NCBI RefSeq assembly: GCF_007954365.1 | Contig: NZ_VOLO01000002.1 | Span: forward strand, 1-64,000 | Source of the DNA: Frigoribacterium sp. ACAM 257 | Lineage (GTDB): Bacteria > Actinomycetota > Actinomycetes > Actinomycetales > Microbacteriaceae | Reading direction: 5' to 3' | Length of the DNA: 64,000 nucleotides | Shown here: positions 1 to 14,482 of the stretch, piece by piece | How the letters are laid out: every line of letters begins with the position of its first letter | Position numbering within the stretch: position 1 is the first letter of the stretch | Program-made: the position numbers and the translations under genes | The notes under the pieces: model-generated | The model's input: only the letters and a program-made list of their open reading frames with translations | Databases searched by the model: none | What the model was told of the DNA's origin: nothing

Positions 1-128
1 TCCTCGAGGGCACCACCGTCCACATCAGCCCCGACGCCGCCGCCCTGCTGAACCAGACCTTCAACACCGACGCCGTCCAGGACGAGATGCTCGTCGGCGT
101 CGCGAAGATCACCGTCGCCACCGAGTAA
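1..128 (+). CDS. C-terminal fragment of an unknown protein
   Basis: The window opens inside a reading frame that ends with TAA at 126-128. The last 41 residues are visible, read from base 3, and end VGVAKITVATE. Alternating short hydrophobic stretches suggest a beta-rich extracytoplasmic domain. I cannot assign a family; a resemblance to the ends of HtaA-type surface domains is only an impression. A strong intrinsic terminator follows about 70 bases later, which supports this being a real, transcribed gene end. Confidence 0.6.
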   Translation, partial: LEGTTVHISPDAAALLNQTFNTDAVQDEMLVGVAKITVATE

Positions 129-197
129 CTCTCTCCCGCACGGTGTCGACCGCGCCGGTGCTGCGCCGTACCTCGTAGGGCCGGCATCCCGGTGGAA

Positions 198-231
198 CCC
201 CATCCCGCTTCGTGAGCGGGATGGGGTTTTT
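198..231 (+). terminator. Intrinsic terminator
   Basis: A perfect 12-bp stem (198-209 pairs with 215-226) with a five-base loop is followed by five T residues at 227-231. It lies 70 bases after the stop codon of the partial gene at the left edge and points the same way. It also separates that gene from the convergent kinase-like gene ending at 251. Confidence 0.9.
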
Positions 232-250
232 CCGTGCGCCCGGGCGGGCC

Positions 251-1153
251 TCAGGCCCAGCGCCGCCTCAGCCAGCCCAGGGCGGCCGCGGCCTCTCGCC
301 GTTGGAACTCCCGGAGGGTCGGCATGTCCGCCGGCGCGGGCGTCTGCAGCGCCTCCGTCCACGAACCGGCGAGGCCGGCGAGGACCGCGTCGACCGCCTC
401 CGGCGGCACCTCCCGCAGGGAGTCGTGCAGGAGGTGCCCCTCGACGTCGCTGCTCGGGTCGCGTACGAGCACATCGAGCAGGTACGTCACCGAGTCGAAC
501 CACGACGCACCGACCGAGGCCCACGGCCAGTCGACCAGCCACACGCGTGAGCCAGCGTCGACGAGGAGGTTGTCGGCACGGCAGTCGAGATGCACCAGGT
601 GGTCACCGTCGGCCGCCTCAGGGAGCCGCAGGGAGGCATCGCGCAGCCGATCGAGGTGCGTGACGGTCCAGGGATCGAGCTCCCCCACCGCTCCGGCCGC
701 GCTCAGGCGGTCCCAGCTCGCGGCGTCGGGCGTGAGCTCGTCCGTGAGGCGCGGCAGTGCCGAGACACCGTCGACGCGGGGCAGAGCGGCGAGCGCATCG
801 AGCACGAGCGTCGTGTCGTCCGGCCCCGGATGACGGCCGTCGACGTCCTCGAACGCCGCGACGACCCAGTCGTCCTGCTCGACCTCCGCGACCAGTCGGG
901 GCGCCGACACCGACGCGGGCAGCTCCCGGACGACCCCCGCCTCCCGCCGGTGCAGCTCGTGGGTACCCGCGTTCCGCGATCGGCTGGCCGACTTCGCGAA
1001 GACCCTGTGGCCGTCCGCGAGCACCAGCCGATCGGCGCTGCCGGAGGAGAACCCCGCCGACTGGCTCACCGCCTCCTCGACCTCGCTGCCCAGCGCCTCC
1101 TCGAGTGCACGGCGCACGGCGCGGGGCACCTCCGCCCACGTCGTCCTGGCCAT
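251..1153 (-). CDS. Aminoglycoside phosphotransferase (APH) family kinase
   Basis: A 300-residue protein of the APH/choline-kinase fold. The catalytic loop HLDCRADNLL (Brenner-type HxDxxxxN motif) and the metal-binding VDWPWA motif (equivalent of DFG) are clear in the C-terminal half, with the nucleotide-binding lobe before them. Family members phosphorylate aminoglycosides, macrolides or small metabolites; nothing here fixes the substrate, so resistance should not be assumed. I chose the ATG at 1153 because GGGAGGAG stands 5 to 6 bases upstream; the longer open frame to 1261 has no such site. The gene stands alone, convergent with the terminator at 198-231. Confidence 0.8.
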   Translation of the reverse strand: MARTTWAEVPRAVRRALEEALGSEVEEAVSQSAGFSSGSADRLVLADGHRVFAKSASRSRNAGTHELHRREAGVVRELPASVSAPRLVAEVEQDDWVVAAFEDVDGRHPGPDDTTLVLDALAALPRVDGVSALPRLTDELTPDAASWDRLSAAGAVGELDPWTVTHLDRLRDASLRLPEAADGDHLVHLDCRADNLLVDAGSRVWLVDWPWASVGASWFDSVTYLLDVLVRDPSSDVEGHLLHDSLREVPPEAVDAVLAGLAGSWTEALQTPAPADMPTLREFQRREAAAALGWLRRRWA

Positions 1154-1250
1154 GTTCGCTCCTCCCGCGACTCTCCTAGTCTCCCCGGTGGTGCAAGCAC
1201 CCGACCGGAACCGGTGCCCGCGCAGTGTCACGAGGGGCGATACTCGATTC

Positions 1251-1493
1251 GTGAACGACACGACGCGCCGCGGCGAGCGCGCCCTGCGTCAGCGCCTGCG
1301 CACGACGTCGTGTTCCGACTGCGAGCACCCGTGGGAGGAGCACGCCGGGTCGGCGGACGACGCTCCGACGACCTGCAGCGAGTGCCGGTACGAAGCCGAC
1401 CACGACCAGGTCGTCGACGGTCGGCCGCTGTGTCGCGACACCGTCCCCGCGGCCGTGATCGCACCTCCTCCCCTCAGGGGCGATCAGCCGTAG
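1251..1493 (+). CDS. Small zinc-ribbon-like protein
   Basis: An 80-residue protein starting at GTG 1251. Two CxxC pairs (CSDCEH and CSECRY) about 23 residues apart are spaced like a zinc-binding ribbon. A third cysteine lies in PLCRD. No transmembrane segment is seen. The gene converges on the small membrane protein ending at 1495, with one base between the stop codons. Function is unknown; small zinc ribbons often bind nucleic acid or act as partner proteins, but that is family knowledge, not evidence here. Confidence 0.55.
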   Translation: MNDTTRRGERALRQRLRTTSCSDCEHPWEEHAGSADDAPTTCSECRYEADHDQVVDGRPLCRDTVPAAVIAPPPLRGDQP

Positions 1494-1494
1494 G

Positions 1495-1758
1495 TCACGC
1501 GTCGGCGGACGCTGCCGAACGCCGTCGGAACAGGCGCACGACCACGGTCCCCGCCACCCAGACGACCGTGAGGGCGACGAAGGCGACCCACATCGGTGCG
1601 TCGAGGCGGTCGACGACGAACCAGAACAAGACGCTGCCCCCGAAGACCAGCAGCAGGTTGACCACGACGTCCTTGACGGGCAGCCACGGCGACGGGGGCT
1701 CGACGACCTCACGGACCTCGACGGGGCGAGGTCTCGGCGGGTCTGTCTCGTCGCTCAT
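1495..1758 (-). CDS. Small membrane protein, two predicted transmembrane helices
   Basis: An 87-residue protein with a proline-rich, acidic N-terminus (MSDETDPPRPRPVEV), a first hydrophobic helix around residues 29-49 (VVVNLLLVFGGSVLFWFVV), a second around 53-72 (MWVAFVALTVVWVAGTVVV), and a basic tail FRRRSA. This fits a two-helix inner-membrane protein with both ends inside. The start at ATG 1758 is the first in-frame Met that gives a sensible protein; the longer frame is arginine-rich shadow. No family recognised. Confidence 0.6.
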   Translation of the reverse strand: MSDETDPPRPRPVEVREVVEPPSPWLPVKDVVVNLLLVFGGSVLFWFVVDRLDAPMWVAFVALTVVWVAGTVVVRLFRRRSAASADA

Positions 1759-1896
1759 GGTCTGAGGATGCCAGATGTCCCCGCGCCTCACTCGGACCCG
1801 AGGAGGTGGCGATCGCGTCCGCGAGGACGACCGTCGCTGGGGGACCGTTCGAGCTCCGTCGTCCGGGCGCGCGGTCCGAGGCACCATGATCGGTTC

Positions 1897-2071
1897 ATGA
1901 GGATCAAGGTCACGTCGGCGGCGATGGCGATCGTCATCCTGTCGACACTTTCCGGTTGCGCTGCGTCTGGACGTCACCGTCGTGTTCGATGACGGAACGC
2001 TGCAGCGTGAAGCTGACGAGCGCTACGGCTCCGACATCGTCGTCGTCGTCTCGGCCTTGAAGCCCGCCTGA
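1897..2071 (+). pseudogene. Probable broken lipoprotein gene
   Basis: ATG 1897 begins MRIKVTSAAMAIVILSTLSGCAAS, a textbook lipoprotein signal with lipobox LSGC. The frame then runs into arginine-rich nonsense and stops at 1992. A different frame, from about 1967 to TGA 2071, reads plausibly as a protein end (LDVTVVFDDGTLQREAD, ending in VVVVSALKPA). The simplest reading is a small secreted lipoprotein disrupted by a frameshift or an internal deletion near the lipobox. It could also be a genuine 31-residue ORF by chance. Confidence 0.45.
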
Positions 2072-2113
2072 CCGTCCCGGGTCACGGATCAGCGGTCGAC
2101 GCGGTCGCGGTCA

Positions 2114-3958
2114 TCACGGTCGTTGGCGGCGCAGCCAGAAGTCGACCGCCTCCGCCGACGGGCGCGCCGTGACGGAGGTGACGTCACCGAGCTCGAGGAC
2201 GCTGTCGGGCGCCTCCTGCAGGCTAGGCCACCGTCCACGGTCGGCTCCGTTCGGATCGCCCCGCGTGACGAAGTCGAGCCAGTACCCCGTCATCTCCGAC
2301 TCGAGGCGACGGTCGACGGTCGTGTAGTCGATGTCCCCGTCGGCGCCGAGGTTGCCGTACGCGTACATCACCTCGGAGCCGTGGTACGCGCCGAAGCGGT
2401 CGAGGTCCGGGTCCGGAGGAACTCGCGTGAAGTAGTAGGGGTACACCGGCGACGTGCCGGACCTGGCAGCCGTCAGCCCCCACTTCCGCATCGGGGCGGT
2501 CATGGACTGGTCGGTGCCGGACCGGATCCGCGACGCGACCACCTCCTCCTCGTCCCCTCCCGGGTACAGCCCGAGGAATTCGTCGGCGTCGTCCCCGTAC
2601 TCCTCGCGGGCCTCCCGAGCCCAGGTCGCCGGGTCCGAGTCGACCCCGCCGATCAGGTCGAGGGACGTCTCGTCGGCGTTGCTGCCGAGCAGCAGGGGGA
2701 CGTCGTTCTGCTGCCCGGCCTCGTAGATCGCCGACGGGGTGTCGGGCAGCACGGCGTCGCCGACGACGGGCCACCAGTGCGTCGTGAGGTCCGCGGCCGC
2801 TGATGCCTTCGCGATTCGCTCCGCCGGCATGTCCCTCATCTCCGCAAGCGTGGCGCCGCCGAGCGCGTCGCTCAGGCCGCGGGCGGCCTCGCGCGCGTGC
2901 TCGGCGTCGTCGTAGAGATCGCCCCCGTCGCGGTCTCCCGCACTGCCCAGGCACCCGCCGCTCTCGCCGATGAGACCGTGGACGAGGCCCCTGGCCAGGG
3001 GCGAGACGCCCAGGATGCACGCGGCGCCCGAGCCCGCCGACTCCCCCGCGACGGTGACCCGCCCCGGGTCCCCGCCGAACTCGCCGATGTTGTCGTGCAC
3101 CCACTCCAGGGCGGCGAGCTGATCGAGCAGCCCCTGGTTGCCGGGGGTGCCGCCGCCGAGTTGGTCGCCGGCCAAAGCCGTGCTGTCCAGGAACCCGAAC
3201 ACCCCGAGCCGGTAGTTGATCGTGACGACGACGGCTCGACCGGTGGACGCCAGGGCCGTCCCGTCGTAGGCGGGCAGCGCGCCCGAGCCGGAGACGAACC
3301 CGCCGCCGTGCAGGTAGACGAGCACGGGCAGGGGCGAAGGAGGCGCCTCCGACGGTCTCCAGACGTTCAGCCGCAGGCTGTCCTCGTCGGTCGCGTACCC
3401 GCCCAGCAGCGTCTGCTCGAGCGGCAGGTCGAGCACGCGGGTCGCGGCCCGGGTGACGACGCTGGGCTCGGCCTGGACCACGGAGGTGCCGAAGTCGTCG
3501 GCGACGAGGGTCTCGGATCGTGCGGGCGCCGGTCGCGGCGCCTCCCACCTCAGGTCGCCGACCGGCGGGGCCGCGTAGGGGATGCCCGCGAAGGCGTCCA
3601 CGCGGCCGCTCGGGTCGCGCACGCCGACCACGTCGCCCTGGGCGGTCGTCACGGGATCCGTGTGGGGGCCGTCCAGGGTCCTGGTCCCGACGATCGGCCC
3701 TGCCGCCAGGGCCACGCCGCCGACGAGGGCAGCCACCCCGACCCACGCTGCGCCGCGGACGAACCACCGTCGACGCCGCCACGTCCGCGACAGGAGCGCG
3801 GCCGCCGCGACGGTCGCGGCCACGAGCAGCCACCCCCACCACGGAGCCTGGTTCAGCCAGGCGACCACCGCGCCGACCAGTGCCACGGCTGCGGTCGGCA
3901 GCCACCACCTCCTGCCGTGCGGTCCGCTGCGTGATCCGTCCTGCGTCTTCTTCGTCAC
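2114..3958 (-). CDS. Membrane-anchored type B carboxylesterase
   Basis: A 614-residue carboxylesterase/lipase of the alpha/beta-hydrolase fold. The oxyanion-hole motif HGGGF lies near residues 217-221, the nucleophile elbow GESAG puts Ser near 307, and later acidic (ADETS) and His (YHGSE) segments fit the rest of the triad. Unlike secreted type B esterases, it starts with three hydrophobic segments (about 21-36, 42-56 and 69-87), which should hold the catalytic domain outside the membrane. GTG 3958 is chosen for the GAGAGG Shine-Dalgarno just upstream; a longer frame to 4048 would run across the operator. It is divergent from the TetR gene at 4060, so regulation by that protein is likely. Substrate unknown. 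Confidence 0.85.
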   Translation of the reverse strand: MTKKTQDGSRSGPHGRRWWLPTAAVALVGAVVAWLNQAPWWGWLLVAATVAAAALLSRTWRRRRWFVRGAAWVGVAALVGGVALAAGPIVGTRTLDGPHTDPVTTAQGDVVGVRDPSGRVDAFAGIPYAAPPVGDLRWEAPRPAPARSETLVADDFGTSVVQAEPSVVTRAATRVLDLPLEQTLLGGYATDEDSLRLNVWRPSEAPPSPLPVLVYLHGGGFVSGSGALPAYDGTALASTGRAVVVTINYRLGVFGFLDSTALAGDQLGGGTPGNQGLLDQLAALEWVHDNIGEFGGDPGRVTVAGESAGSGAACILGVSPLARGLVHGLIGESGGCLGSAGDRDGGDLYDDAEHAREAARGLSDALGGATLAEMRDMPAERIAKASAAADLTTHWWPVVGDAVLPDTPSAIYEAGQQNDVPLLLGSNADETSLDLIGGVDSDPATWAREAREEYGDDADEFLGLYPGGDEEEVVASRIRSGTDQSMTAPMRKWGLTAARSGTSPVYPYYFTRVPPDPDLDRFGAYHGSEVMYAYGNLGADGDIDYTTVDRRLESEMTGYWLDFVTRGDPNGADRGRWPSLQEAPDSVLELGDVTSVTARPSAEAVDFWLRRQRP

Positions 3959-3979
3959 CCTGATCCTCTCGATGCGGTC

Positions 3980-4008
3980 CGTACTCGATACGAACCGTAC
4001 TCGATACG
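3980..4008. promoter_or_regulatory. Candidate TetR operator: two copies of CGTACTCGATACG
   Basis: The 13-mer CGTACTCGATACG occurs at 3980-3992 and again at 3996-4008, 16 bp apart. Each copy is itself an imperfect palindrome (CGTA, five bases, TACG). The outer edges extend this to GTCCGTA and TACGGAC, which are reverse complements. It lies between the divergent esterase and TetR genes, the normal position for an operator bound by two TetR dimers. That it is the operator is inference. Confidence 0.7.
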
Positions 4009-4047
4009 GACTGCACCCAATCTGGAGGAGGTGCGGGCCGGGGCGCA

Positions 4048-4053
4048 TAGGCT
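4048..4053 (+). promoter_or_regulatory. -10 element of the TetR gene; leaderless transcript likely
   Basis: TAGGCT at 4048-4053 matches the actinobacterial -10 pattern TAnnnT and ends six bases before the GTG start at 4060. Transcription would therefore begin at or next to the start codon. No Shine-Dalgarno is present, which agrees with a leaderless message. The operator repeats cover the expected -35 region. Confidence 0.5.
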
Positions 4054-4059
4054 CGTCCC

Positions 4060-4686
4060 GTGAACGACGGAGAAACCCCCTCGGTGCGGCGACGGACCGA
4101 CACCCGGCGTCGCCTCCTGGCGGCCGCGGCCGACCTGTTCGAGGCGAGCGGCACGATCAGCCAGAGCGTCGAGGCCCTGTGTGCGCGGGCGGGCTTCACC
4201 CGCGGGGCCTTCTACTCGAACTTCACCAGCGTCGACCAGCTCTACCTCGCGCTGCACGAGGAGCAGGCGGGCCGGGTCTGGCACCGTCTGTGGGCGGCCC
4301 TGGAGGCGCAGACGTCAGGTGAGGGGCGGCGAGGCTCCCTCGAGGAGGCGGTGGGCCACCTCCTGGACTCGCTGCCCGACAGCAGGGAGTGGTTCTCGCT
4401 GCGGTCGGTGCTGCTCGCGCGGGCGGCTGCGGACCCCGTCTTCGCCGACCTGATGAGGATCGACGACGGCGCCGTCGCGGCGGAGCTGGGCGCGCGGTTC
4501 GTCGCCCTCGCCGCCGTCCACGGACGCGAGCCCGTCGTCGAGCCGGCCCTGCTGGCGAAGGCCGTCGTCGCCGCCCACGTGGGCGCGGTCGGCCAGTCGG
4601 CCGTCGATCCCGACGGCGTGCGGACGCAGGTCGTCGCGGTGACGGCGGTCATCCGCGGGCTGACGGTCGAGTCGGCTGCGCCGTAG
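4060..4686 (+). CDS. TetR/AcrR family transcriptional regulator
   Basis: A 208-residue TetR-type repressor. The N-terminal helix-turn-helix reads TRRRLLAAAADLFEASGTISQSVEALCARAGFTRGAFYSNFTSVDQLYLAL, including the diagnostic GAFYSNF segment. The C-terminal all-helical part would bind a ligand. Start GTG 4060 follows a -10 hexamer by six bases (leaderless). The divergent carboxylesterase and the paired operator-like repeats between them suggest that it represses the esterase and itself. The inducer is unknown. Confidence 0.9.
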   Translation: MNDGETPSVRRRTDTRRRLLAAAADLFEASGTISQSVEALCARAGFTRGAFYSNFTSVDQLYLALHEEQAGRVWHRLWAALEAQTSGEGRRGSLEEAVGHLLDSLPDSREWFSLRSVLLARAAADPVFADLMRIDDGAVAAELGARFVALAAVHGREPVVEPALLAKAVVAAHVGAVGQSAVDPDGVRTQVVAVTAVIRGLTVESAAP

Positions 4687-4723
4687 GGCTGCTACCGCTC
4701 CCCCGACGGACGTCCGTGGCTCG

Positions 4724-5914
4724 TCAGCGCTCGCCGCCCCTGCCGAGCATGGCCACCAGGGCGGTGGCGAGGCTGCGGTCGATGTCGTCGGGGACCGCGC
4801 CGGCGCCCGTCCAGGGCACGTCGCCCCGGGCGATGGCGGCGAGGCTGCGTGCCTGCAGCGACAGGCCGAGGTCCATGGCCTGGATGGGGTTCCCGCCGGC
4901 GGCGGTGAGGTTGATCATGCGAGTGCCGTGCAGCGTGATGATCTCCCGACCGTCGACGAGACGGTGCAGGACACGGGCGTCGGGGTCGCCGCCGGGGGCG
5001 GAGAGGTCGACGGTGTCCACGGTGCGGCCGGCGAGCGCCGCGTGGTCGAGCTCCAGGCCCTCGTGGCCGACGCCGGCGATGATGACGCCGTCCCTGAGGA
5101 ACTCGATGTGCTCGTCGTCGATGACGGCCCGTGCGCCGGTCGCGAGGAAGAGCAGCTCGGTCCCGGGCAGGACCGAGCGGAGCGACCCGACGAGGTGGCC
5201 GCGCATGATGGCGTCCAGGGCGCGGAAGGGATCGGTGTCGACGACGCTGACGACGGCGCCGAGACCACGGAGGGTGTCGGCGACGCCCTTGCCGCAGGGA
5301 CCGTACCCGACGACGGTCGCCCGGGCTCCCGGGAGCATGGAGTTGGTCGCGTTCATGAAGCCCTGGACGATGCTCTGCCCGACGCCGTGTTCGTTCTCGA
5401 CGACGAGCTTCAGCTGGCTGTCGTTGATGACGACGACGGGGAAGTCGGGGGCGACCGGGAGGGCGCGGACGGCGATGCCCCCGGTGGTGGTCTCCTCCGT
5501 GGCGCCGAGGAAGTTCGCCGACCGGGGCGCGCCCCGGGTCAGCTTGGCGATGAGCTCGCCGCCGTTGTCCATGACGATGTCGGGCTCTGCCGCGAGGAGT
5601 CGGTCGAGGTTCCCGTCGTGCTCGTCGGCGCCGTCGGCGCGGTGCCCGATGACGGTGACGCCGAGCTCCCCGAGTGCGTCGGCCGTCTCCGCGACGGTGG
5701 TGCCGACGTTGCCGGTGAGGGTGACCCGAGCGCCCTGGTCGAGCAGCCAGCGGCACAGCACCGCAGTCTTGGGCTCGATGTGGATGCAGATGCCGACGTG
5801 CAGACCTGCGAAGACGGGGGCGTCGCGGCTGATGCTGTCCGCGAGGAGCGGCATGTTGCGGGTGGCCCAGTCGATGGCGGGGTAGCCGGCGGGGGCGAGG
5901 GTGCGTGAGGACAT
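4724..5914 (-). CDS. S-adenosylhomocysteine hydrolase-like protein
   Basis: A 396-residue protein of the adenosylhomocysteinase family, which splits S-adenosylhomocysteine using bound NAD. Family features seen: HIEPKTAVL near residue 45, VMDNGGEL near 115, EETTTGG near 140, NDSQLK near 164 (keeps the Asn-Asp-Ser and Lys of the active site), and the Rossmann loop GYGPCGKG near 203. It departs from classical enzymes: they are usually longer (about 430-490 residues), the post-NDS segment is EN rather than DN, and the C-terminal GCATGHP-type motif is replaced by NLTAAGGNP. ATG 5914 is chosen for AGAAGG seven bases upstream; another Met lies at 5947. No methionine-cycle gene is adjacent. It may act on a related nucleoside rather than serve the main methyl cycle. 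Confidence 0.75.
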   Translation of the reverse strand: MSSRTLAPAGYPAIDWATRNMPLLADSISRDAPVFAGLHVGICIHIEPKTAVLCRWLLDQGARVTLTGNVGTTVAETADALGELGVTVIGHRADGADEHDGNLDRLLAAEPDIVMDNGGELIAKLTRGAPRSANFLGATEETTTGGIAVRALPVAPDFPVVVINDSQLKLVVENEHGVGQSIVQGFMNATNSMLPGARATVVGYGPCGKGVADTLRGLGAVVSVVDTDPFRALDAIMRGHLVGSLRSVLPGTELLFLATGARAVIDDEHIEFLRDGVIIAGVGHEGLELDHAALAGRTVDTVDLSAPGGDPDARVLHRLVDGREIITLHGTRMINLTAAGGNPIQAMDLGLSLQARSLAAIARGDVPWTGAGAVPDDIDRSLATALVAMLGRGGER

Positions 5915-6302
5915 CGTGGTGCCTTCTTGTTCTGTCAGGCGGGTCATCGGTGGTGTGGTTTGCGGTCCACAGTGTCACTCGGCGCATGGGATGAGAGCCT
6001 TTCTGTCACCCTTGGCGGACCCTGGCTGCTGCTCTGTTTGTCACCAATATGATCCAACAGCCCATTCGGCTCTCGGCTCTCGGCTCTCGGCTCGGAGCTA
6101 TGGGCGCCTGCCCAAGATGGCATTCCGGCTAGACCCTCCACCTGAGGTCCCCCTAGCTGCTGCAAGCAGCTGCAAGGACGATCGATGCGGAGGGCAAGGC
6201 GGCGCGAGCGGCCAATGCGTAGATCGCATCAAGCGCGACGTCGACTCGAACCGCGCCTGCAAATGGCGACCTCATGTCGCGGTGATGGGGCAGACTGCAT
6301 GT
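5915..6302. other. Intergenic region at the left edge of the accessory block
   Basis: About 390 bases without a convincing gene. It should hold the divergent promoters of the SAH-hydrolase-like gene and the nuclease-like gene. It includes a 7-bp tandem repeat (CGGCTCT three times plus a partial, 6067-6093) and a small GCTGC/GCAGC inverted repeat near 6157-6172. GC falls and codon style changes to the right of here, so this may be one boundary of the accessory block. Confidence 0.5.
6067..6093. repeat. 7-bp tandem repeat, CGGCTCT x3.9
   Basis: CGGCTCT is repeated at 6067, 6074 and 6081, followed by CGGCTC at 6088. It lies in the gap between the SAH-hydrolase-like gene and the nuclease-like gene. 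A short tandem repeat like this can vary in copy number by slippage. Confidence 0.8.
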
Positions 6303-7775
6303 GTGAGCACACCTCGCATCTTCTTCTCTGACCAGTTCGGGATTCCCCGTGCAGCGCTCGACAAGTACGGCGCGTTCGATATCAACCTTCTTGCTGATGT
6401 ACGCCTGTTTGTCGACCCCTTCCTGCTGTTCAACAGCAAGAAAGCGGAGTACCAGGCGTTACACGAAGATGTCCTCCGGTACCTCCGGTTCCTTAAAACA
6501 ATCGCTGGCGATGACCTTCCCTCCGGAACGGTCAAGGATTTGTTCCGGTTCCAAGAAGTCAAGCAAAACTGGTTCGGCTACTGCGAACTCGGTAACGAAG
6601 GGCGTGGCCTCGGGCTCGACTTCGCTAAGGCGATGCGAGAAGCCCTTGGGCGCGCGCTCAGTAACTTCGGCGAGGAAACTGGGACAAAAAGTAGTCACCT
6701 GGAAAAGGTGGCCCTTATCCGCCCACGCGTGGGCAAAGACAACATCAGTGACTTCACCACGAACCTGATCAAGCACTATTTGGTGGATTACACCGAAAGG
6801 TTCGCGAAAGAACACATCGATCCCGCTTTCTGCGCGACGGTCGGTGTTCGTAGGGTTCGTTTCAATTACGACACGCAGACTTGGGTAGACGAACCGAGGT
6901 ACCTGCCCGTATTCCAGGGTGATTACGTGCTCCTCACCCCGGTAGACATGCTGATTCACGATGACGTCTGGATCAATCATGGCGACATGGTGAAGCGGTA
7001 TCCGCAGATCGTTGAAGGCGTAGATGACGACGTGCAACGCGCCCGAGTAGACCAGTACTTCCGTCGACAGCTCGCCGGCACGAAAGACCCAACGCCAAAA
7101 CAAATTGGAAACGCGCGAGAGCGGACTCTCGCGATGTTTCCTTCATTGCTGGACATCTATATTCGCTTGCGCGAGAACGACGGCGATGGTGCGGCCGCTG
7201 TCAGTGACGAAGAGATCGAGTACCTGCGGGCTGTGTTCGTGTCCTCTCTCTCTAAAGTACTCGAGGAGTTCTGGTCCCTTCCGGACATGGCCGCGAGGCC
7301 AAAGGCACCGAGTCTCGAAGAGGTCCGGTACCGAGTCAATGTCTTCAAGCGGTGGGTAGAAGACCAGGAAGGCTACCGGACTCTCAACGATGTTCGGGGC
7401 AAAGCTGCAGCAGAGAAGGACCTTCAACGGGTGGTCTTCCTTGCCTTGCAAGCAAGCCGATTTGACGTAAACGCAGAGGTGAACAACGGCCGCGGGCCGG
7501 TCGACTTTAAAGTGAGCCGAGGGTCAGCTGACAGCGCCTTACTCGAGATCAAGCTGGCATCAAATTCCCACCTGCGTCGGAACCTACAAAACCAAGTCGA
7601 CGTCTATCGAAAAGCGAATAACACCCGACATTCGGTGACCATGATCATCTACTACACCCGGGAAGAGAAGGCGAGAGTGGATAATATCGTGGCAGAACTG
7701 GGGTTAACGGACGAACCTGACGTTGTCCTTATCAACGCCCGGAACGACGACAAGCCATCTGGCTCAAAGGCGTAG
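6303..7775 (+). CDS. Uncharacterised protein with C-terminal PD-(D/E)XK nuclease-like domain
   Basis: A 490-residue protein. The N-terminus (STPRIFFSDQFGIPRAALDKYGAFDINLLADVRLFVDPFLLF) is distinctive but I do not recognise a named domain. Near the C-terminus, an Asp in GRGPVDFKV (about residue 401) followed by LLEIKLA (Glu about 414, Lys about 416) forms the D...ExK signature of the restriction-endonuclease fold, with a Gln-rich helix (NLQNQVDVYRKANN) and a strand (SVTMIIYYT) after it. No transmembrane segment. GTG 6303 is chosen because homologous-looking N-termini should start at the SxPRIFF segment; ATG 6285 is an alternative. Codon use is visibly more AT-rich than in neighbouring core genes. 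An Mrr-like gene follows, suggesting a DNA-targeting defence role, which is inference. Confidence 0.75.
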   Translation: MSTPRIFFSDQFGIPRAALDKYGAFDINLLADVRLFVDPFLLFNSKKAEYQALHEDVLRYLRFLKTIAGDDLPSGTVKDLFRFQEVKQNWFGYCELGNEGRGLGLDFAKAMREALGRALSNFGEETGTKSSHLEKVALIRPRVGKDNISDFTTNLIKHYLVDYTERFAKEHIDPAFCATVGVRRVRFNYDTQTWVDEPRYLPVFQGDYVLLTPVDMLIHDDVWINHGDMVKRYPQIVEGVDDDVQRARVDQYFRRQLAGTKDPTPKQIGNARERTLAMFPSLLDIYIRLRENDGDGAAAVSDEEIEYLRAVFVSSLSKVLEEFWSLPDMAARPKAPSLEEVRYRVNVFKRWVEDQEGYRTLNDVRGKAAAEKDLQRVVFLALQASRFDVNAEVNNGRGPVDFKVSRGSADSALLEIKLASNSHLRRNLQNQVDVYRKANNTRHSVTMIIYYTREEKARVDNIVAELGLTDEPDVVLINARNDDKPSGSKA

Positions 7776-7959
7776 GCAAATAGAAATGCCTTCTTTGGGC
7801 GTAGGGGCATCTCAACCCATAGCGGAGATCCTGCGGTTGACTCAGGCACCGGCACAATATCCGTATTTAGGGAGTGGTCCGACGGCTGGCAAACCTAAGC
7901 CTCCCTTGATGCCATAGGACCGCATTACGCTGGGTCAGCACACACAGAACTGGATAAGT

Positions 7960-8691
7960 ATGCAAATCGAGCCCCTACACCGCCAGAAGGCAGTCGAACT
8001 GGGCCTCCTATTTGGCGAAGGTTACCCCAACATCCATGACTCTGCGGCAGCGATTAGCGAAGCCGCAAGGCGCGACCGAGAGATGCAACGCGAGCTCAAC
8101 GACATTGCAGCTGAATTTGGGGATGCACATTTTCACGTGGCGCCCGAGAACGACTTCACGCCCAGCCAGCTCAGGATCGCCAAGCTCTACCTGGCCGAAC
8201 TCGGCTCCATCGCTTCTAAAGCGATTGCTACCGCCCTCCAGTGGCGAGCCCTCTTGGGTAAAGATGGCACTTACCCAGAGGCTGGCACGCAGTACCCACA
8301 CCTTCGAGACGCGGCGACCCGCAAAGAAATCGCGCGGGAGTTCGCTACAAAACACCCGACGGCCGCCATGAGTGGCGTAGGTAGCGCCGGAGGGTCATTG
8401 CGTCGCCCGAGACCGGGGACAGCCGAGGCACGATATGCGGAGCTGTGGGTCGCCAGTCATCTCGGCGGCGGCGCCACCGCAGCTAGTAATGATCGTGGCA
8501 TTGACGTCCTGGGCGGGGGGTACGCGGTACAGGTGAAGAACCTTGCCAGCCCCGTGGGTCGGCCGGTTGTTCAGAGCATCTTCGGGGCTGCCCAGGGACA
8601 TGGAAAACCGGCTATCTGGTCAAACCGTGGATTCACGTCTGGGGCCGTTGCCGAGGCCCGTCGGCTCGACGTTGCATTGTTCAGCTTTTAG
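7960..8691 (+). CDS. Mrr-like restriction endonuclease domain protein
   Basis: A 243-residue protein. Residues about 1-140 are helical and unassigned. The C-terminal part reads TAEARYAELWVASHLGGGATAASNDRGIDVLGGGYAVQVKN, the Mrr-type catalytic core: GIDV supplies the Asp (about 183) and QVK the Gln-x-Lys variant of the ExK motif (about 191). PVVQSIFGAAQGHGKPAIWSNRGFTSGAVAEARRLDVALF is the usual downstream part of that fold. Mrr enzymes cut DNA carrying foreign methylation; no methyltransferase is nearby, which fits a modification-dependent enzyme. Start ATG 7960. The gap of 184 bases after the preceding nuclease-like gene holds nothing else obvious. Confidence 0.8.
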   Translation: MQIEPLHRQKAVELGLLFGEGYPNIHDSAAAISEAARRDREMQRELNDIAAEFGDAHFHVAPENDFTPSQLRIAKLYLAELGSIASKAIATALQWRALLGKDGTYPEAGTQYPHLRDAATRKEIAREFATKHPTAAMSGVGSAGGSLRRPRPGTAEARYAELWVASHLGGGATAASNDRGIDVLGGGYAVQVKNLASPVGRPVVQSIFGAAQGHGKPAIWSNRGFTSGAVAEARRLDVALFSF

Positions 8692-8843
8692 ATCACCCGA
8701 GGAAATCACCAGCACTCTTGCCAATGATCCCGGGACTGCTGTCGCTTCAGTTGCCTCCTGCGCTGCAAGGATTTCGGTTCTCACGAAACGACAGTCACCG
8801 CGCCAAGAGCAACGCATATGACGATCACGCGTCAATAAAGGCT

Positions 8844-9674
8844 CTATCCAGAGGTTGCCTCGTCATGCAAACTAATCCATGTAGTGCCTACGGCCTGTGC
8901 CAGGTCACCTGACACTTCGTCCGACGTGATGACGGCGACGGCACCGTCGCGCTCAACCCAGAGGTCATTCTCATTCATTTTTCCTACCTCGATTACTCCT
9001 GCGGCAAACTCGACCTCGAGGGCGTCAGGACTGGCGGCCTGGACGAATACAGCCGGCCGCGCTCCCTTCGCATCCACGATCATGCAGCTCGCACTCGCGA
9101 CGAAGCGCGAAGTATCGACTTGGAAGAGCCCCTGGTCCGCTGGCGCTGGCGCCACCAGCTCGTCAACACAGGGCAGAAGAATGGTCAGTTGCTGGATGTT
9201 GACAATCTCACCTTGGTTCTCTCCATAGTTTTCTCCGTAGAGCCGGATACTCGAGTTCGCATGGAGGCCGAAGAGAGTAAGGCAGCAAACGACAGCGCTG
9301 ACAACCAATGCACTTGCCATCGCGTAAGCGGTGGCTTTTGATGCTTGCCCCCCGGTACGGAGGGACAGGAACGACAGCCCTGTCCCCAAAGCTCCGAACA
9401 GGACTCCGAACCAGGAGACGTGCCCGAGGAAGAACAGGCCGCAAGCCATCACGACGGATAGGGCAGCAGCAAGGGATGGCCAGCTTGTCGGCTCTCCACC
9501 CCGACCTTGCCTCAGGGGCCTACCCGTCGATCCTCTGGTGGTCAGGATGTGATAGATAGCCCACAGGAAGAACGCGATTGCAGCTCCGGCCAGGGCAAAC
9601 CACACCATCATGCAGACGAGGACAATCATCGAAAGGACTTGAACAAAGCCCAGCCCTAGTGACGCTTCCCGCAT
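8844..9674 (-). CDS. Membrane protein with extracytoplasmic C-terminal domain
   Basis: A 276-residue protein with four predicted helices: about 11-36, and, after a short basic loop (RGSTGRPLRQGRGG), three more between about 66 and 136. The remaining 130 or so residues are soluble, with four cysteines or fewer and no recognised domain. ATG 9674 is chosen for a run of six G residues just upstream; an earlier ATG at 9719 lacks such a site. It lies on the strand opposite to the two nuclease-like genes. Function unknown. Confidence 0.65.
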   Translation of the reverse strand: MREASLGLGFVQVLSMIVLVCMMVWFALAGAAIAFFLWAIYHILTTRGSTGRPLRQGRGGEPTSWPSLAAALSVVMACGLFFLGHVSWFGVLFGALGTGLSFLSLRTGGQASKATAYAMASALVVSAVVCCLTLFGLHANSSIRLYGENYGENQGEIVNIQQLTILLPCVDELVAPAPADQGLFQVDTSRFVASASCMIVDAKGARPAVFVQAASPDALEVEFAAGVIEVGKMNENDLWVERDGAVAVITSDEVSGDLAQAVGTTWISLHDEATSG

Positions 9675-9791
9675 ATTCGCCCCCCCAGGCCACAGTGTCA
9701 GGTCCTGAGGACCATGCAAACCCCATGTTCGGGGGCGCCAATTTCACTTCACGTAAGAGGACGGTTGCGTCCACGCGTCGCGGTCTGGCGA

Positions 9792-10934
9792 TTACTTCGC
9801 CGCTTTGAGCGCGGCTGTGTTGACGGCTGCGGCGAAGCTGTGGGCTAGTTCGCTGTCCTTGGGGCTCAGTTTGACCGACCAGACCCGTTCGGCTCCGGTG
9901 ATGACGAGGTAGAGCTCGCGGTCGTCGGTCTTCTTCTCTCTCGCTCCAATTACTGCTCCTACAGGGCCGAGAAGCGCAGCGCCGGTGATGGTGTTTCCCC
10001 AGTCGAACCGTCGAGAGATCTGCCCTGAGGTAAGCACCTCCACGTGGGTACCAGCCACCGGCTGGCTTGCACCCGCGTACGTGATTCGATTGCCGGAGAA
10101 GGTGACCCCACCTAGCGTGTGGATTCCGTCGACGCCGCGAGCACCTGCCTCCTTCTTAGCCTTTGCGTAGAAGTAGATGCCAAATCCGATGGCGCCGATG
10201 GCGCCAGCGATTAGTGCGTAGGTCAGCCCGCCGGCAAAGGCACCGATGGCGGCGCTCATGGATCCGCCGATTATGGCCCCGAGCCAACCCTCGGCCTGAC
10301 CGGGTACCCGTTTCTTGACCTTTCGTCTCTTCCTCGGCTCACTCAGCGCGGCCGGCGGTGCCGGGATCTTCTCGACGGCAAGTCGTTCCGCCATTACGAG
10401 CGCCTCGCGAATGCGTAGCCATTCCTCTCTGCTCGTCGTGGAAGTTCGAACGAAAGCAGTTTGAGACGTAGCGGATATTTTGTCGAGCGGCGGTTGGCCA
10501 ACACGGTCGAAGTCGACGACATTGTTCATGTCGTTCACCCTGACGCTACTGACGGTGCTCATGGGCAATTCAAGGTGCGGTTTACTCGTGGCCAGCTTCC
10601 GAAAGAGCAGTACTCCCCGCGCATCAAGCTCAATGAGGTTTCCCACGACTTGTGTCGGGGTAAATGTCGCGACGTTCGAGGCCTGTGTGTCGACCGGTTC
10701 GGCGCTCAAGTTGCCGCTTTCGGCGGGTGCAGCAGGCGCGGTTGCGGAAGGGGCGCTCCCCGAGGACGACGGGGCGGCTGCAACGATGACCTCGTCACTC
10801 TTCGGGGCGGGTTCCGACTGCTGGAGCTCGCTGGTAGCTGACCGGTGCTCGGTCCATTGGTTTCCGTCCCACCACCGCGCGTGACCCGCTCGCCCCGCAT
10901 CCGGGTACCAACCTGCCGGAACCTGCTCAGCCAT
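9792..10934 (-). CDS. DUF2510 domain membrane protein
   Basis: A 380-residue protein that opens with the actinobacterial DUF2510 motif (PAGWYPDAGRAGHARWWDGNQWTEH, residues 6-30). An Ala/Pro/Ser-rich linker follows, then a region around 105-190 that looks like a small beta-rich domain, a basic stretch (EPRKRRKVKKRVPG), two to three hydrophobic helices with Gly/Ala content (GWLGAIIGGSMSAAIGAFAGG onward), and a C-terminal domain resembling the short PH-like repeats seen in other DUF2510 proteins. GAGGGAG precedes ATG 10934. Such proteins are common in actinobacteria and have no established function. Confidence 0.7.
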   Translation of the reverse strand: MAEQVPAGWYPDAGRAGHARWWDGNQWTEHRSATSELQQSEPAPKSDEVIVAAAPSSSGSAPSATAPAAPAESGNLSAEPVDTQASNVATFTPTQVVGNLIELDARGVLLFRKLATSKPHLELPMSTVSSVRVNDMNNVVDFDRVGQPPLDKISATSQTAFVRTSTTSREEWLRIREALVMAERLAVEKIPAPPAALSEPRKRRKVKKRVPGQAEGWLGAIIGGSMSAAIGAFAGGLTYALIAGAIGAIGFGIYFYAKAKKEAGARGVDGIHTLGGVTFSGNRITYAGASQPVAGTHVEVLTSGQISRRFDWGNTITGAALLGPVGAVIGAREKKTDDRELYLVITGAERVWSVKLSPKDSELAHSFAAAVNTAALKAAK

Positions 10935-11211
10935 GGGCACTCCCTCATCCTGCCCGGATCCTCGCACAAGGATGGAGGACACAAAGCCGCCGCCGCGCAC
11001 ATACGGTTCTTTATGTGGCTTAGGGACGTCTCGTCTCGCCGCGAGACGGGCCCGGTCATGGGCTCCCACGCACGCAAGTCCGATCTGCGAGCACGCATCG
11101 TGAGGCGTGTTTCAGGGATTGCCGAAGAACCGATCGTGACGGGTAGCCAACAGACAGCTCGGGTGTTCAGCACTGACCAGGGAACGGAACGGACTTGTGC
11201 CGTCCCTCGGG

Positions 11212-11697
11212 TCATGAGGCAACGTTGGCGAAAGGCTTGCGTCCAAACGTCTCCTCGAACCGAGCTATCCACCGCTGCTCTACCGTCCGGCCGAGTTCTT
11301 CGCCGGTGGGCGCCCAGCCCACAAGAAGTTCGTTTGCGTCCGCTAGTTGCCAGATGGCGCGTCCGCCGGTGTGGCTACTTCCTCGGCGTGCGTATTGCTT
11401 GACGCGACTGTGTATGCCGCCCTTCGCTGGGTCGGCTTTACCGATGTAAAGGATCGGGCTGTTCTCTACCCATCGGCCCACCAAGGTTTCAACGTCGTAG
11501 GGCCTACCTGTCGCCAGGCTTGTGCTCGTGAAAGCCCGCTTGGTGGAACCTGGGCGCACGACGGCGTAGATACCGTGCGTCTTCGGCAGCTCGAGGTGTC
11601 GAGGAATCCGGACATCGTCGAATGTAACGAAGCCGCGAAAACCCACAGACTCAAGGCCCGCTCGGTCCCAGCTTGGAGGATATGGAAACTCGTTCAT
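11212..11697 (-). CDS. GIY-YIG nuclease-like protein
   Basis: A 161-residue protein with the GIY-YIG catalytic core: HGIYAVV at residues 41-47, LYIGKAD at 83-89, the following Arg and Tyr in GGIHSRVKQYARRG (98 and 102), and a C-terminal Glu-containing helix EQRWIARFEETFGRKPFANVA whose Asn fits the family end motif. GIY-YIG enzymes cleave DNA in repair, restriction and mobile introns. No DNA-recognition domain is attached. Its ATG overlaps the upstream gene's stop by four bases (ATGA at 11694-11697), so it is the third gene of a minus-strand operon with two unassigned proteins. Confidence 0.75.
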   Translation of the reverse strand: MNEFPYPPSWDRAGLESVGFRGFVTFDDVRIPRHLELPKTHGIYAVVRPGSTKRAFTSTSLATGRPYDVETLVGRWVENSPILYIGKADPAKGGIHSRVKQYARRGSSHTGGRAIWQLADANELLVGWAPTGEELGRTVEQRWIARFEETFGRKPFANVAS

Positions 11698-12134
11698 AAG
11701 TCACTCGGCGTGTCGTCGTCTGCCAAAAGATCGTCGATCCGCCGCTGGACGCGTGCGGCCTCGGCATGCCGGTCACACGTCCAGATGCCACTGATTGCCA
11801 CTGCCGCGTCGTCGCCGCACTGGGAACCGAGAGCGCCACCTCGCTCACACCGGTGCTTGATTTCTGGCAGCAAATGCGCGGGAGCAAGATCACTGTTCCG
11901 CCACCACCGACCTGTCCACTGGCTCAAATGTTCAGAGCAGTACCACCATCCGATACCACCGGACTTAGTCCAGTGCCTGATCACCGTCACGTCCTCAACC
12001 GGGTACCACGGGTCGCCTTCTCGGGTTCCGCGGTATGAGCACTGGCTCAGGTTCTCGCTGCCGACGTAGAGGCTGCGGTCTTCGACCTCACGAAGTGGTG
12101 TCGGCGTCTCGACCTTCATCTCACCTAGCTTCAT
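11694..12134 (-). CDS. Unknown small protein with Cys/His pairs
   Basis: A 146-residue soluble protein. It contains CSEH, then CERG, CGDD and CDRH in its second half, spacing that could bind zinc, and a Trp-rich stretch GGIGWWYCSEHLSQWTGRWWRNS. The acidic end is DDLLADDDTPSDL. ATG 12134 stands two bases after the previous gene's stop, and its own stop overlaps the GIY-YIG gene's start, so the three are very likely cotranscribed. No family recognised. Confidence 0.65.
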   Translation of the reverse strand: MKLGEMKVETPTPLREVEDRSLYVGSENLSQCSYRGTREGDPWYPVEDVTVIRHWTKSGGIGWWYCSEHLSQWTGRWWRNSDLAPAHLLPEIKHRCERGGALGSQCGDDAAVAISGIWTCDRHAEAARVQRRIDDLLADDDTPSDL

Positions 12135-12136
12135 GG

Positions 12137-12688
12137 TCAGGCTACGTTCTGCGTTGTGCGGTTCAGGACCGCACGCCATCGTTTGGCCTGCTCTTCCGTG
12201 ATGCCAACGTGCAGCTCGTGCCTCAGCTTGAGCTGCCGGCCGGACATGGTCACAAGAGGCCACTCGGTCGAGCCTTCATAGAGTCCGGGCCCCCACAGTG
12301 GAGCGTCTTTGTAGTGCTTCCTCAGGTGCGGAGTGATGTGGCGGCACGCAGTTCGCCATTCTCCGATCGTGAGCTCCGTGCGCTCGGAGATGTCCGTTGT
12401 GGAGAACAGCGTCCCGGGACTCTCGGCACAAAGAGTCATGACGATGGACCACCGACGGGTGGTCTCGGTCGTCGCTGCCGCGAGCCGCTCCAACGCAGAT
12501 TCAGGCCACGGAATGAACGCGCCGAACGTCGTGCGACGAAGCATTTCGCTAGCAAGCTCGTCATCGCTCAGTTCACCAGCTGACGGCGAAGTGGGTTCGC
12601 CACGCTTCCGTTGACGCTCCGCGATATCGAGTTCGATCGAATCGGCGTCTTGTGCCGGGACGGGAAGAAGAACCCATTTTGTGACCAT
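12137..12688 (-). CDS. Unknown protein with a possible winged-helix segment
   Basis: A 183-residue soluble protein, first gene of the three-gene operon ending with the GIY-YIG nuclease-like gene. The middle, GTLFSTTDISERTELTIGEWRTACRHITPHLRKHYKDAPLWG, reads like a helix-turn-helix followed by a wing, so it may bind DNA. The N-terminus (VTKWVLLPVPAQDADSIELDIAERQRKRG) is short and charged. ATG 12688 follows AAAGGA at a normal distance. Function unknown; sequence-specific DNA binding for the nuclease would be an attractive but untested role. Confidence 0.6.
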   Translation of the reverse strand: MVTKWVLLPVPAQDADSIELDIAERQRKRGEPTSPSAGELSDDELASEMLRRTTFGAFIPWPESALERLAAATTETTRRWSIVMTLCAESPGTLFSTTDISERTELTIGEWRTACRHITPHLRKHYKDAPLWGPGLYEGSTEWPLVTMSGRQLKLRHELHVGITEEQAKRWRAVLNRTTQNVA

Positions 12689-13078
12689 TATTTGGTCCTT
12701 TCGGTCGCAGCCAGGACTTCCGGCCGCCTCCAAATAGAGTGACCCGTTGCTACCAATCTGCACAACGGGCTACGTCGGAAATTTGCAACCCGCAGCTGGG
12801 CGGTCCCGAAGAGGGCGAAGGAAGGGAACTCCTGACGCGACTGCGAAAGCTGCTGAATAGCACCTCACCCTGGAGGCGACAGCAGCCCCCCGCGCTGGCT
12901 TCTCTAGCCGGATAGACGTGTGTTGGCAACCGTTTCCGAGTGGAGCGCACGGACGCGGAACGGCAGTATCGAGACCGGAATGCCCATCCTGCTAGTGCAG
13001 GTCAAATTGTCGCCTTTCGTCGAAAGCGACAACTTAGACAGCATTTCGACAAGATAGTTCGCAGACGACAGCAAGTTG
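12689..13078. other. Intergenic region between the accessory block and dnaB
   Basis: About 390 bases with no supported gene. It holds the promoter of the three-gene operon on the left and the hairpin that should end dnaB transcription on the right (13007-13032). I see no integrase, tRNA or perfect direct repeat that would mark an attachment site here. Confidence 0.5.
13007..13032 (-). terminator. Hairpin downstream of dnaB
   Basis: TTGTCGC at 13007-13013 pairs with GCGACAA at 13026-13032, and TTTCG (13015-13019) pairs with CGAAA (13021-13025), leaving one bulged C and a one-base apex that would open into a small loop. It lies about 46 bases after the dnaB stop codon on the minus strand. There is no long T run, so termination strength is uncertain. 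Confidence 0.55.
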
Positions 13079-14482
13079 CTAGCTCGGCATGTCCACGAAC
13101 CGCGAGAACATGCCGTGGAAGGCCACGGTGATCGTGTCCGTCGGGCCGTTGCGGTGCTTGGCGACGATGAAGTCGGCCTCGCCTTGGCGCGGGTTGTCCT
13201 TCTCGTAGGCGGACTCGCGGTGCAGCAGGATGACCATGTCGGCGTCCTGCTCGAGCGAGCCGGACTCACGCAGGTCGCTGATCGCGGGCTTCTTGTCGGC
13301 ACGCTGCTCGGGGCCACGGTTCAGCTGCGACAGCGCGATCACGGGCACCTGCAGTTCTTTCGCCATCAGCTTCAGGGCACGCGAGAACTCCGAGACCTCC
13401 TGCTGACGGCTCTCGACGCGCTTGCCCGAGGTCATCAGCTGCAGGTAGTCGATCACCACGAGCTTGAGGTTGTGCTGCTGCTTGAGCCGGCGGCACTTCG
13501 CGCGGATCTCGACCAGCGTCATGTTGGGCGAGTCGTCGATGAAGAGGGGCGCGTCGTTGATGCGGCCGCGCACCTGCGCGATGTTCGTCCAGTCACGGGC
13601 GTCGACGGTCCCCTTGCGCATGTTCTGCAGCGGCACGCTCGACTCGGCCGACATCAGGCGCATCGCGATCTCGCTGCGCCCCATCTCGAGCGAGAAGAAG
13701 ACCGAGGCCTGGCCGTGCTTGATCGATGCCGCCCGCGCGAGGTCGAGCGCCAGCGTCGACTTTCCGAGCGCGGGTCGCGCCGCCACGATGATCAGCTGAC
13801 CGGGGTGGAACCCGTTCGTCAGCGCGTCGAGCTGCGCGAAGCCGGTGGGCACGCCGGTCATCTGCCCGTCCCGGCCCTTGGCCGCCTCGATCTCGTCGAT
13901 CGCGACCGTCACGGCCTCGTTCAGGGGCACGTAGTCCTCTGTCTGGACTCCCCCGGCGACGTTGTAGACCTCGGCCTGCGCGTTGTTGACCAGGTCGACG
14001 ACCTCGCCCTCGCTCGCGTAGCCCATCTGCACGATGCGGGTGCCGGCCTCGACCAGGCGCCGCAGCACCGCCTTCTCGGCGACGATCGAGGCGTAGTAAC
14101 CGGCGTTGGCGGCCGTGGGCACGACGCCGGTGAGCGTGTGCAGGTACTCCGCGCCTCCTGCCCTCGACAGGTCGCCCGACTTCATCAGCTCGTCGCTGAC
14201 CGTGATGACGTCGGTGGGCTCGCCGTGCGAGTACAGGCCGAGGACGGCGTCGTAGATGACCTCGTGCTTCGGCACGTAGAAGTCCATGCCGCGGACGGTC
14301 TCGATGACATCGGCCACCGCGTCTTTGCTCAGCAGCATGCCGCCGAGGGTGCTCTGCTCGGCGAGCAGGTCGTGCGGGGGCACCCGGTCCATGCCGGTGC
14401 CCATGCCGCTGCGGTCGCTGCGCTGCTGCCGGTCGCTGTCGCCGGACGTGCCGCTCGCGAGACCGAGGTGAGCGATCGACAT
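13079..14482 (-). CDS. dnaB: Replicative DNA helicase DnaB
   Basis: A 467-residue hexameric helicase that unwinds DNA ahead of the replication fork. The N-terminal primase-interaction domain begins near PPHDLLAEQSTLGGMLLSKDAVADV; the RecA-like domain carries the Walker A ARPALGKSTLALDLA, Walker B-type KLVVIDYLQLM, and ALSQLNRGPEQRADKKPAISDLRESGSLEQDAD, as in all DnaB proteins. No intein interrupts it, although many actinobacterial dnaB genes carry one. AGGAGGT stands at a normal distance from ATG 14482. A group of DnaA-box-like sites lies 144 to 240 bases upstream. Confidence 0.97.
   Translation of the reverse strand: MSIAHLGLASGTSGDSDRQQRSDRSGMGTGMDRVPPHDLLAEQSTLGGMLLSKDAVADVIETVRGMDFYVPKHEVIYDAVLGLYSHGEPTDVITVSDELMKSGDLSRAGGAEYLHTLTGVVPTAANAGYYASIVAEKAVLRRLVEAGTRIVQMGYASEGEVVDLVNNAQAEVYNVAGGVQTEDYVPLNEAVTVAIDEIEAAKGRDGQMTGVPTGFAQLDALTNGFHPGQLIIVAARPALGKSTLALDLARAASIKHGQASVFFSLEMGRSEIAMRLMSAESSVPLQNMRKGTVDARDWTNIAQVRGRINDAPLFIDDSPNMTLVEIRAKCRRLKQQHNLKLVVIDYLQLMTSGKRVESRQQEVSEFSRALKLMAKELQVPVIALSQLNRGPEQRADKKPAISDLRESGSLEQDADMVILLHRESAYEKDNPRQGEADFIVAKHRNGPTDTITVAFHGMFSRFVDMPS

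Follow-up and report, generated by a model that had tools for sequence, protein, structure and literature searches.

A candidate single-gene defence nuclease of Frigoribacterium with a conserved N-terminal domain related to PDC-M36A

Introduction

Defences that consist of a single nuclease protein have to separate invader from self without a methylase. In type I Shedu, as outlined in passages of one report, an N-terminal clamp binds DNA ends and a PD-(D/E)XK domain nicks (PMC12904381). Further candidates come from computational screens. The PDC family names go back to a 'guilt-by-embedding' screen, and most of these candidates still await validation according to the relevant passages of that work (PMC12988326). 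Two other PDC candidates, PDC-M63AB and PDC-S04, are given as inactive when tested in the native host in an excerpt of a second study (PMC12409345), and DefensePredictor is summarized in a third as having led to 31 further validated systems, 13 of them with PD-(D/E)XK domains (PMC13092281). Our full-text literature search for PDC-M36, bioRxiv preprints aside, found no paper.

Here we describe a nuclease gene located in the window, by which we mean the whole stretch of DNA analyzed, namely positions 1 to 64,000 of contig 7 in the 3.33-Mb genome of Frigoribacterium sp. ACAM 257. Its features are collected in Table 1, in which the N-terminal module is called the N-domain.

Table 1. Coordinates of the nuclease gene, its parts and its surroundings in the window
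Feature	Position	Strand	Basis or remark
Single-gene nuclease, 490 aa	6303..7775	+	GTG start at 6303, stop 7773-7775
N-domain, residues 6-256, family-defining module	6318..7070	+	PADLOC PDC-M36A match 9-256
Helical linker, residues 257-360	7071..7382	+	least conserved part; helices in model
PD-(D/E)XK nuclease domain, residues 361-478	7383..7736	+	model, structure alignment, family alignment, Pfam hits
Catalytic signature D401 ... E415-x-K417	7503..7553	+	80/80 aligned close-family proteins including the window protein
Conserved C-terminal tail, NARNDDKPSGSKA in the window	7734..7772	+	consensus DARxDNKPSASxA
Mrr-like nuclease (Mrr_cat)	7960..8691	+	Pfam PF04471, 28.6 bits, cut-off 21
Low-GC accessory island ending at dnaB	6000..13078	.	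GC 0.53-0.64 vs 0.68-0.76 for 1-6000
dnaB, conserved edge of variable slot	13079..14482	-	97-100% identical in 15 congeners

Comparison with described systems

The window protein shares its N-domain with PDC-M36A, and both carry a PD-(D/E)XK-type motif at the C-terminus. However, the full PDC-M36A members at loci L109 and L018, which match the PDC-M36A profile over nearly its full length (745 and 798 bits, respectively), bear a different version of the nuclease (DLIFYN ... E-x-K-N-V), whereas the window protein aligns with profile positions 9-250 of 457 only (67.6 bits, E 2.3e-19), which was its sole PADLOC match at E <= 10. These full members also have two paralogous genes of ~125 aa directly downstream, which the window gene lacks. 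In the viral-contig loci L107-L110 and on a Methylobacterium plasmid (L018), these two small genes encode 121-148 residues, and the first lies 9-14 bp downstream; both match PDC-M36B in L109 and L018, the loci scanned. When four B and four C proteins were used as phmmer queries, the called ORFs of 122 loci gave matches only in L018 and L107-L110, and PDC-M36B-like genes were found neither near the window gene nor in the 91 close-homologue loci. Because the PDC-M36B genes are absent and the PDC-M36A match is partial, we regard the window gene as a single-gene relative of PDC-M36A that stands outside PDC-M36. It links this database candidate to a common single-gene form that the PDC-M36A profile matches in the N-terminal half only.

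The window protein resembles Shedu (SduA) in being the product of a single gene with an N-terminal part, sensing in Shedu, and a PD-(D/E)XK nuclease, and by analogy with the mechanism sketched for Shedu it may work in a similar way (PMC12904381). In the structure alignment described below, the Shedu nuclease domain (8ti9) appeared with a Z score of 4.9 over 123 aligned residues. The Pfam and PADLOC libraries contain SduA models, but the window protein matched Shedu in neither. The Shedu N-terminus is furthermore termed diverse in a passage of the same report (PMC12904381), whereas the N-domain of the window family is as well conserved as its nuclease. The protein shares with type IV restriction enzymes (Mrr, McrBC) the character of a methylase-free nuclease, and the adjoining gene is Mrr-like, but the window protein itself has no Mrr_cat match. 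It differs from restriction-modification (R-M) systems in that no cognate methyltransferase was found among the window island genes scanned. PHROG 30194, a phage family without a given function, matched residues 6-450 (E 2.5e-33), which indicates that phage or prophage genomes hold relatives of almost the full length.

A probably horizontally acquired gene under purifying selection

The nearest relative is a Frondihabitans protein (L021) that is 73% identical to the window protein. The matching stretch opens at the identical residue in both, V/M-STPRIFFSDQFG, which supports the GTG start, and the DNA homology between the two loci begins at 6288, 15 bases ahead of the GTG. The two genes differ at the third position in 277 of 489 codons and at the second position in 72; dN was 0.20 and dS was saturated, indicating that the protein is under purifying selection, and this excludes a chance ORF. 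Since homology to the relative's locus is limited to the gene alone, the gene seems to move as one unit. Its composition is foreign (GC3 0.66, compared with 0.95 for dnaB), for which horizontal acquisition is the best explanation.

Distribution of relatives

A scan of 84,980 species genomes yielded 356 relatives, of which the best 80 (41-73% identity) were kept. These 80 loci were found by two short N-domain patterns, and forms lacking the patterns are therefore under-counted. Alignment A3 comprised 85 proteins, namely the window protein, 74 of the 80 loci and ten viral-contig loci; it omits L079 and L096, in which the called gene is interrupted, as well as L039, L059, L078 and L082. The close family consists of 80 of the 85 aligned proteins (window, 74 genome loci and five viral-contig loci). 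The window-type form spans about 20 phylum-level groups, 20 being labelled in the tree, which draws on the best 80 of the 356 relatives. The 21 Actinomycetota rows make up one side of a well supported branch. The Pseudomonadota, Bacillota, Chloroflexota, Nitrospirota and Verrucomicrobiota are each divided, and these splits in the sequence tree are suggestive of transfer without proving it. A Cryobacterium bin and a Microbacterium bin encode identical family proteins (L028:3166-4641 and L030:2561-4036), each followed by a gene for a 760-aa AAA protein, and this sequence identity probably reflects a recent transfer.

Nineteen plasmid records matched the protein, 11 of which hold at least 80% of it. 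A scan of viral_contigs with the alignment gave 11 loci, and one with the single window protein gave no relative; tblastn with the window protein against 50,697 phage records and a comparison of phage records with a PDC-M36A protein gave no match. At closer range the occurrence is patchy. Among 99 genomes (the window's own and its nearest), five including its own had any match, and a close match was confined to its own. A profile of the N-domain hit 10 of 296 genomes of the class, three hits reading as window type, three as a type with the motif VECKNY and three as nuclease-free; the tenth (G157, E 8.7e-5) coincides in part with a dnaA-like ORF and was set aside as probably spurious.

The C-terminal nuclease domain

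The initial annotation had recognized a D...ExK core of the restriction-endonuclease fold at the C-terminus, and both the alignment and a predicted structure bear this out. In the close-family alignment (window plus 79 others), D401, E415 and K417 were each present in all 80 proteins, within the motif NGRGPVDFK ... LEIKLA; the catalytic glutamate, given earlier as Glu414, is Glu415. An AlphaFold2 model of the full protein (pLDDT 84.8, pTM 0.81) predicted a helix at 371-382, strands at 388-390, 402-406 and 410-418, a helix at 424-439, a strand at 444-450, a helix at 453-465 and a strand at 474-478. Residues 371-478 are thus predicted to follow the order of elements found in restriction endonucleases, with an alpha-beta-beta-beta-alpha-beta core, the absence of which would have spoken against the earlier assignment. 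Ten-residue means of pLDDT over 371-480 were 72-94, except for 57 at 391-400 and 69 at 431-440. The top rows of VIA-align 2 were BstYI (Z 7.3) and a chain of the Wolbachia CinA/CinB complex (Z 7.3), and the following rows included BamHI (6.5), OkrAI (6.5), a chain of the CidA/CidB complex (6.5) and BglII (6.3). Although these Z scores are middling, the sequence motif and the predicted fold agree, and we take the PD-(D/E)XK core to be real.

Searches by other means returned less. Foldseek with the full model gave nothing under E 0.05, and PDB sequence searches with the protein or the family profile gave no meaningful match. The window protein matched no Pfam family at E <= 1, Mrr_cat included, and among the 85 aligned proteins PDDEXK_9 was matched in 13 and PDDEXK_3 in four, at weak significance. 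Beyond the nuclease, the C-terminal tail is well conserved in the close family (K484 in 79/80, S486 in 77/80 and S488 in 79/80), and a similar tail occurs in distant members with the same nuclease version (L003, L004, L016, L124 and L125).

A conserved N-domain shared by several architectures

Our interest centres on the N-domain. The N-terminal ~380 residues had been described as unfamiliar. This holds insofar as neither Pfam nor NCBIfam contains a family that matches it; the region is not unique, however, as it contains a conserved module that PDC-M36A also matches. We aligned 29 chosen proteins representing five architectures: the window type (D401 ... E415-x-K417); the PDC-M36A type (DLIFYN ... 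E-x-K-N-V); a DITY ... VECKNY type (L005 and L126-L128); proteins with altered nuclease residues (L019 and L020); and nuclease-free proteins of 305 to 342 residues (L121, L133, L134 and L135). D32, E85, G92, G100, D146, S149, D150 and P213 were present in all 29 and D38 in 28, and every aligned member of the PDC-M36A type kept D32, E85, G92, G100, D146, S149 and D150. Judged from these sequences, the N-domain is a conserved, portable and functionally undescribed module common to PDC-M36A and nuclease-free proteins. In L019:7995-9803 and L020:7941-10028, the nuclease shows E to H and E to K changes, the N-domain is intact and the C-termini are longer. The nuclease-free proteins (L133:8362-9279, L134:7772-8800, L135:8443-9360 and L121:9372-10334) have all of the invariant residues.

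Mean pairwise identity over 80 proteins was 0.555 for the N-domain, 0.557 for the nuclease and 0.392 for the linker. The idea that the N-domain is better conserved than the nuclease was rejected on these equal values. Target-recognition domains vary in sequence, and a domain conserved equally with the nuclease is therefore unlikely to be a variable sequence-reading domain.

Several invariant residues fall within blocks 91-150 of the model (mean pLDDT 61-82), in loops or at helix starts, a predicted placement that would fit a site to which a metal, a ligand or DNA adds the missing part. A model of the isolated N-domain (pLDDT 75.1, pTM 0.79) found no relative among PDB structures; its confidence is lower, and with three stretches under pLDDT 50 the absent match does not prove a new fold.

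Defence genes around the relatives

Neighbours were counted at 91 loci (all 80 plus five plasmid and six viral loci) by scanning ORFs of at least 90 aa. Gene calling was simple, taking the longest ORFs, and the names HsdM, HsdS, HsdR, Res, AbiE, TIR, MORC/Z1 and type IIG were assigned by eye. Immediately upstream, PADLOC recognized type III restriction enzymes in 7/86 cases and Pfam recognized RE_endonuc in 6/86; as background, RE_endonuc was matched once across 30 related genomes and never in 14 controls, sets that differ from the homologues' own genomes. Immediately downstream, PDC-S06 (AAA_13) was found in 3/78 and HerA in 2/78. A cluster reading as HsdM was present at 10 of the 91 loci, and genes of type I restriction systems also recurred beside relatives, as did RloC/PrrC-like ATPases. 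The commonest PADLOC family accounted for 7/86 upstream and 4/78 downstream neighbours, and most immediate neighbours are not recognized defence genes.

We also compared N6-methylases with their background in 42 of the homologues' own genomes, those of loci with ~10 kb on either side (L066 and L079 left out). Five lay within 10 kb of homologues, compared with 0.2 expected from 39 strong hits in 177.8 Mb, 0.90 Mb of which surrounds the homologues. The enrichment of ~25-fold (Poisson P about 2e-6) is approximate, because the observed cases were collected with an iterated profile at >=60 bits and the background with Pfam at >=100 bits.

As read from these sequences, the relatives lie among changing defence genes. 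The question whether homologues recur beside known defence genes, raised in the initial annotation, can thus be answered affirmatively for restriction genes of types III and I and for ATPases resembling RloC/PrrC. By eye, a TIR-domain gene lies beside prophage genes at L138, and among the nuclease-free loci L135 has AbiE-like and methyltransferase genes nearby and L133 a MORC/Z1-like pair. A pairing with an XRE-ImmA/IrrE regulator was considered and rejected, occurring at only two of the 91 main-set loci. Related XRE-ImmA/IrrE-like (HExxH) genes stand 8-34 bp upstream in three different hosts (L011:8679-9983, L023:8923-9966 and L139:6901-8088).

Proposed function and alternatives

We consider it likely, with a probability of roughly 0.7, that the window gene was acquired horizontally and encodes a single-gene defence nuclease under the control of its N-domain; its defence activity, target and trigger are the parts that we infer. 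The kept catalytic residues, the restriction-like predicted fold, the portable N-domain, the defence genes near relatives and in the corresponding slot of congeners, and the patchy occurrence all argue for this reading. On the other side stand the many neighbours of relatives outside recognized defence families, the missing PADLOC matches of the further island and flank genes scanned in the window, and the reported inactivity of two other PDC candidates. The N-domain would then act as a sensor or licensing module, a switch responsive to a ligand, a metal or a DNA structure, and would keep the nuclease inactive until infection. Once released, the nuclease would cut DNA, probably the invader's. 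By analogy with Shedu, which responds to DNA ends, the N-domain more likely recognizes a feature that many invaders share. As one conserved domain with few invariant residues is common to several nuclease versions and to nuclease-free proteins, the question of what it senses can be tested by swap or mutation. A more far-reaching proposal, possible but tentative, gives the N-domain a sensor or enzyme fold that has yet to be described. It would then be an infection detector that can be moved between proteins and has an acidic site of its own for a metal or ligand; bacteria would have joined it to at least three different PD-(D/E)XK nucleases, kept it after nuclease decay and also used it by itself, in some cases next to other restriction systems. 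As a single-gene weapon, the window gene would be its simplest form.

Some defence nucleases act indiscriminately once triggered, and abortive types are found among the neighbours of relatives (PrrC/RloC-like; by eye also AbiE and TIR). The protein might accordingly act in abortive infection or as a toxin, with host DNA or RNA and not the invader's genome as the target of the activated nuclease, a mode that overlaps with that of the gated defence nuclease. Against this reading, which we consider unlikely, nothing in these data points to toxicity, and a sequence cannot tell the substrate.

It is less probable still that the protein serves as an accessory subunit that depends on a host R-M system and reads modification state or complexes. 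Such a role would fit a number of loci. In L026, L028 and L051 the family gene trails a gene for a helicase-like protein of ~1050 aa, which by eye is a type III Res subunit, with a gap of at most 5 bp or an overlap of 4; in L028, L030 and L051 it is followed by a 757-760-aa AAA gene; genes resembling HsdM, HsdS and HsdR, subunits named by eye, are nearby in other loci; and the nuclease-free form of L135 sits ahead of a type IIG-like methyltransferase, again by eye. However, the neighbours elsewhere are of many unrelated kinds, and a same-strand gene lies within 40 bp at just 28/90 loci upstream and 23/86 downstream. Where a gene is so tightly linked, dependence on partners is possible, and this counts against the single-gene reading. 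Beside the window gene itself, scans of the island genes with Pfam and PADLOC turned up neither a methylase or helicase of an R-M system nor a specificity gene, in agreement with the initial annotation; PADLOC matched none of five further ORFs of the island and two genes of its flank.

The gated defence nuclease also has to be weighed against a housekeeping or mobile-element maintenance nuclease without an immune role, which would suit the 19 plasmid records with relatives and the Phage_integrase domains in 4/86 upstream and 1/78 downstream neighbours. The occurrence described above (5/99 related genomes; 10/296 genomes of the class by N-domain, one probably spurious) is too patchy for housekeeping, and relatives are enriched beside R-M genes, which leaves this reading improbable.

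Least probable of all is that the window gene and the Mrr-like neighbour form one system: the two genes share the strand, a gap of only 184 bp, a nuclease-like character and similar GC3 (0.66 and 0.65), but the Mrr-like gene has no relative in any homologue's locus, and L021 has a different Mrr-type gene nearby on the opposite strand (by eye). The Mrr-like gene was accordingly rejected as a conserved partner, and of the earlier proposal of a single- or two-gene antiphage system the single-gene form and a probable defence context stand. In the other 98 of the 99 related genomes, one partial match to the Mrr-like gene was seen, and in PADLOC the gene gave a weak ZorD match only.

The slot beside dnaB

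The island that carries the gene ends at dnaB, and the slot after dnaB is a hypervariable cargo site in the genus (window 13079 leftwards; L112:844-5032; L117:1478-2809). Homology to six congeners stops at or within ~55 bases of the dnaB end, the exception being one 84-bp match elsewhere, and the sequences after dnaB are nearly unrelated among the six, any pair aligning over at most 2.6 kb of 14 kb with dnaB included. This comparison excludes G011, whose contig ends there and from whose other side L122 comes. We scanned ten slot proteins of G007, G013 and G006 against PADLOC, leaving out G003, G009 and G012. G007 carries near full-length Gabija genes (GajA, E 4e-264; GajB, E 8.9e-226) and G013 a PDC-S19 gene; the other three proteins of G007, the other two of G013 and the two of G006 had no match.

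Two further window ORFs on the minus strand may be mentioned. The ORF at 11212-11697 reads like a GIY-YIG nuclease (GIYAV ... LYIGKA), with no match in Pfam or PADLOC. The ORF at 4724-5947 is adenosylhomocysteinase-like; in a search of 16 genus genomes its full-length match was only in its own genome, where a partial match, 37% identical, lies on contig 6.
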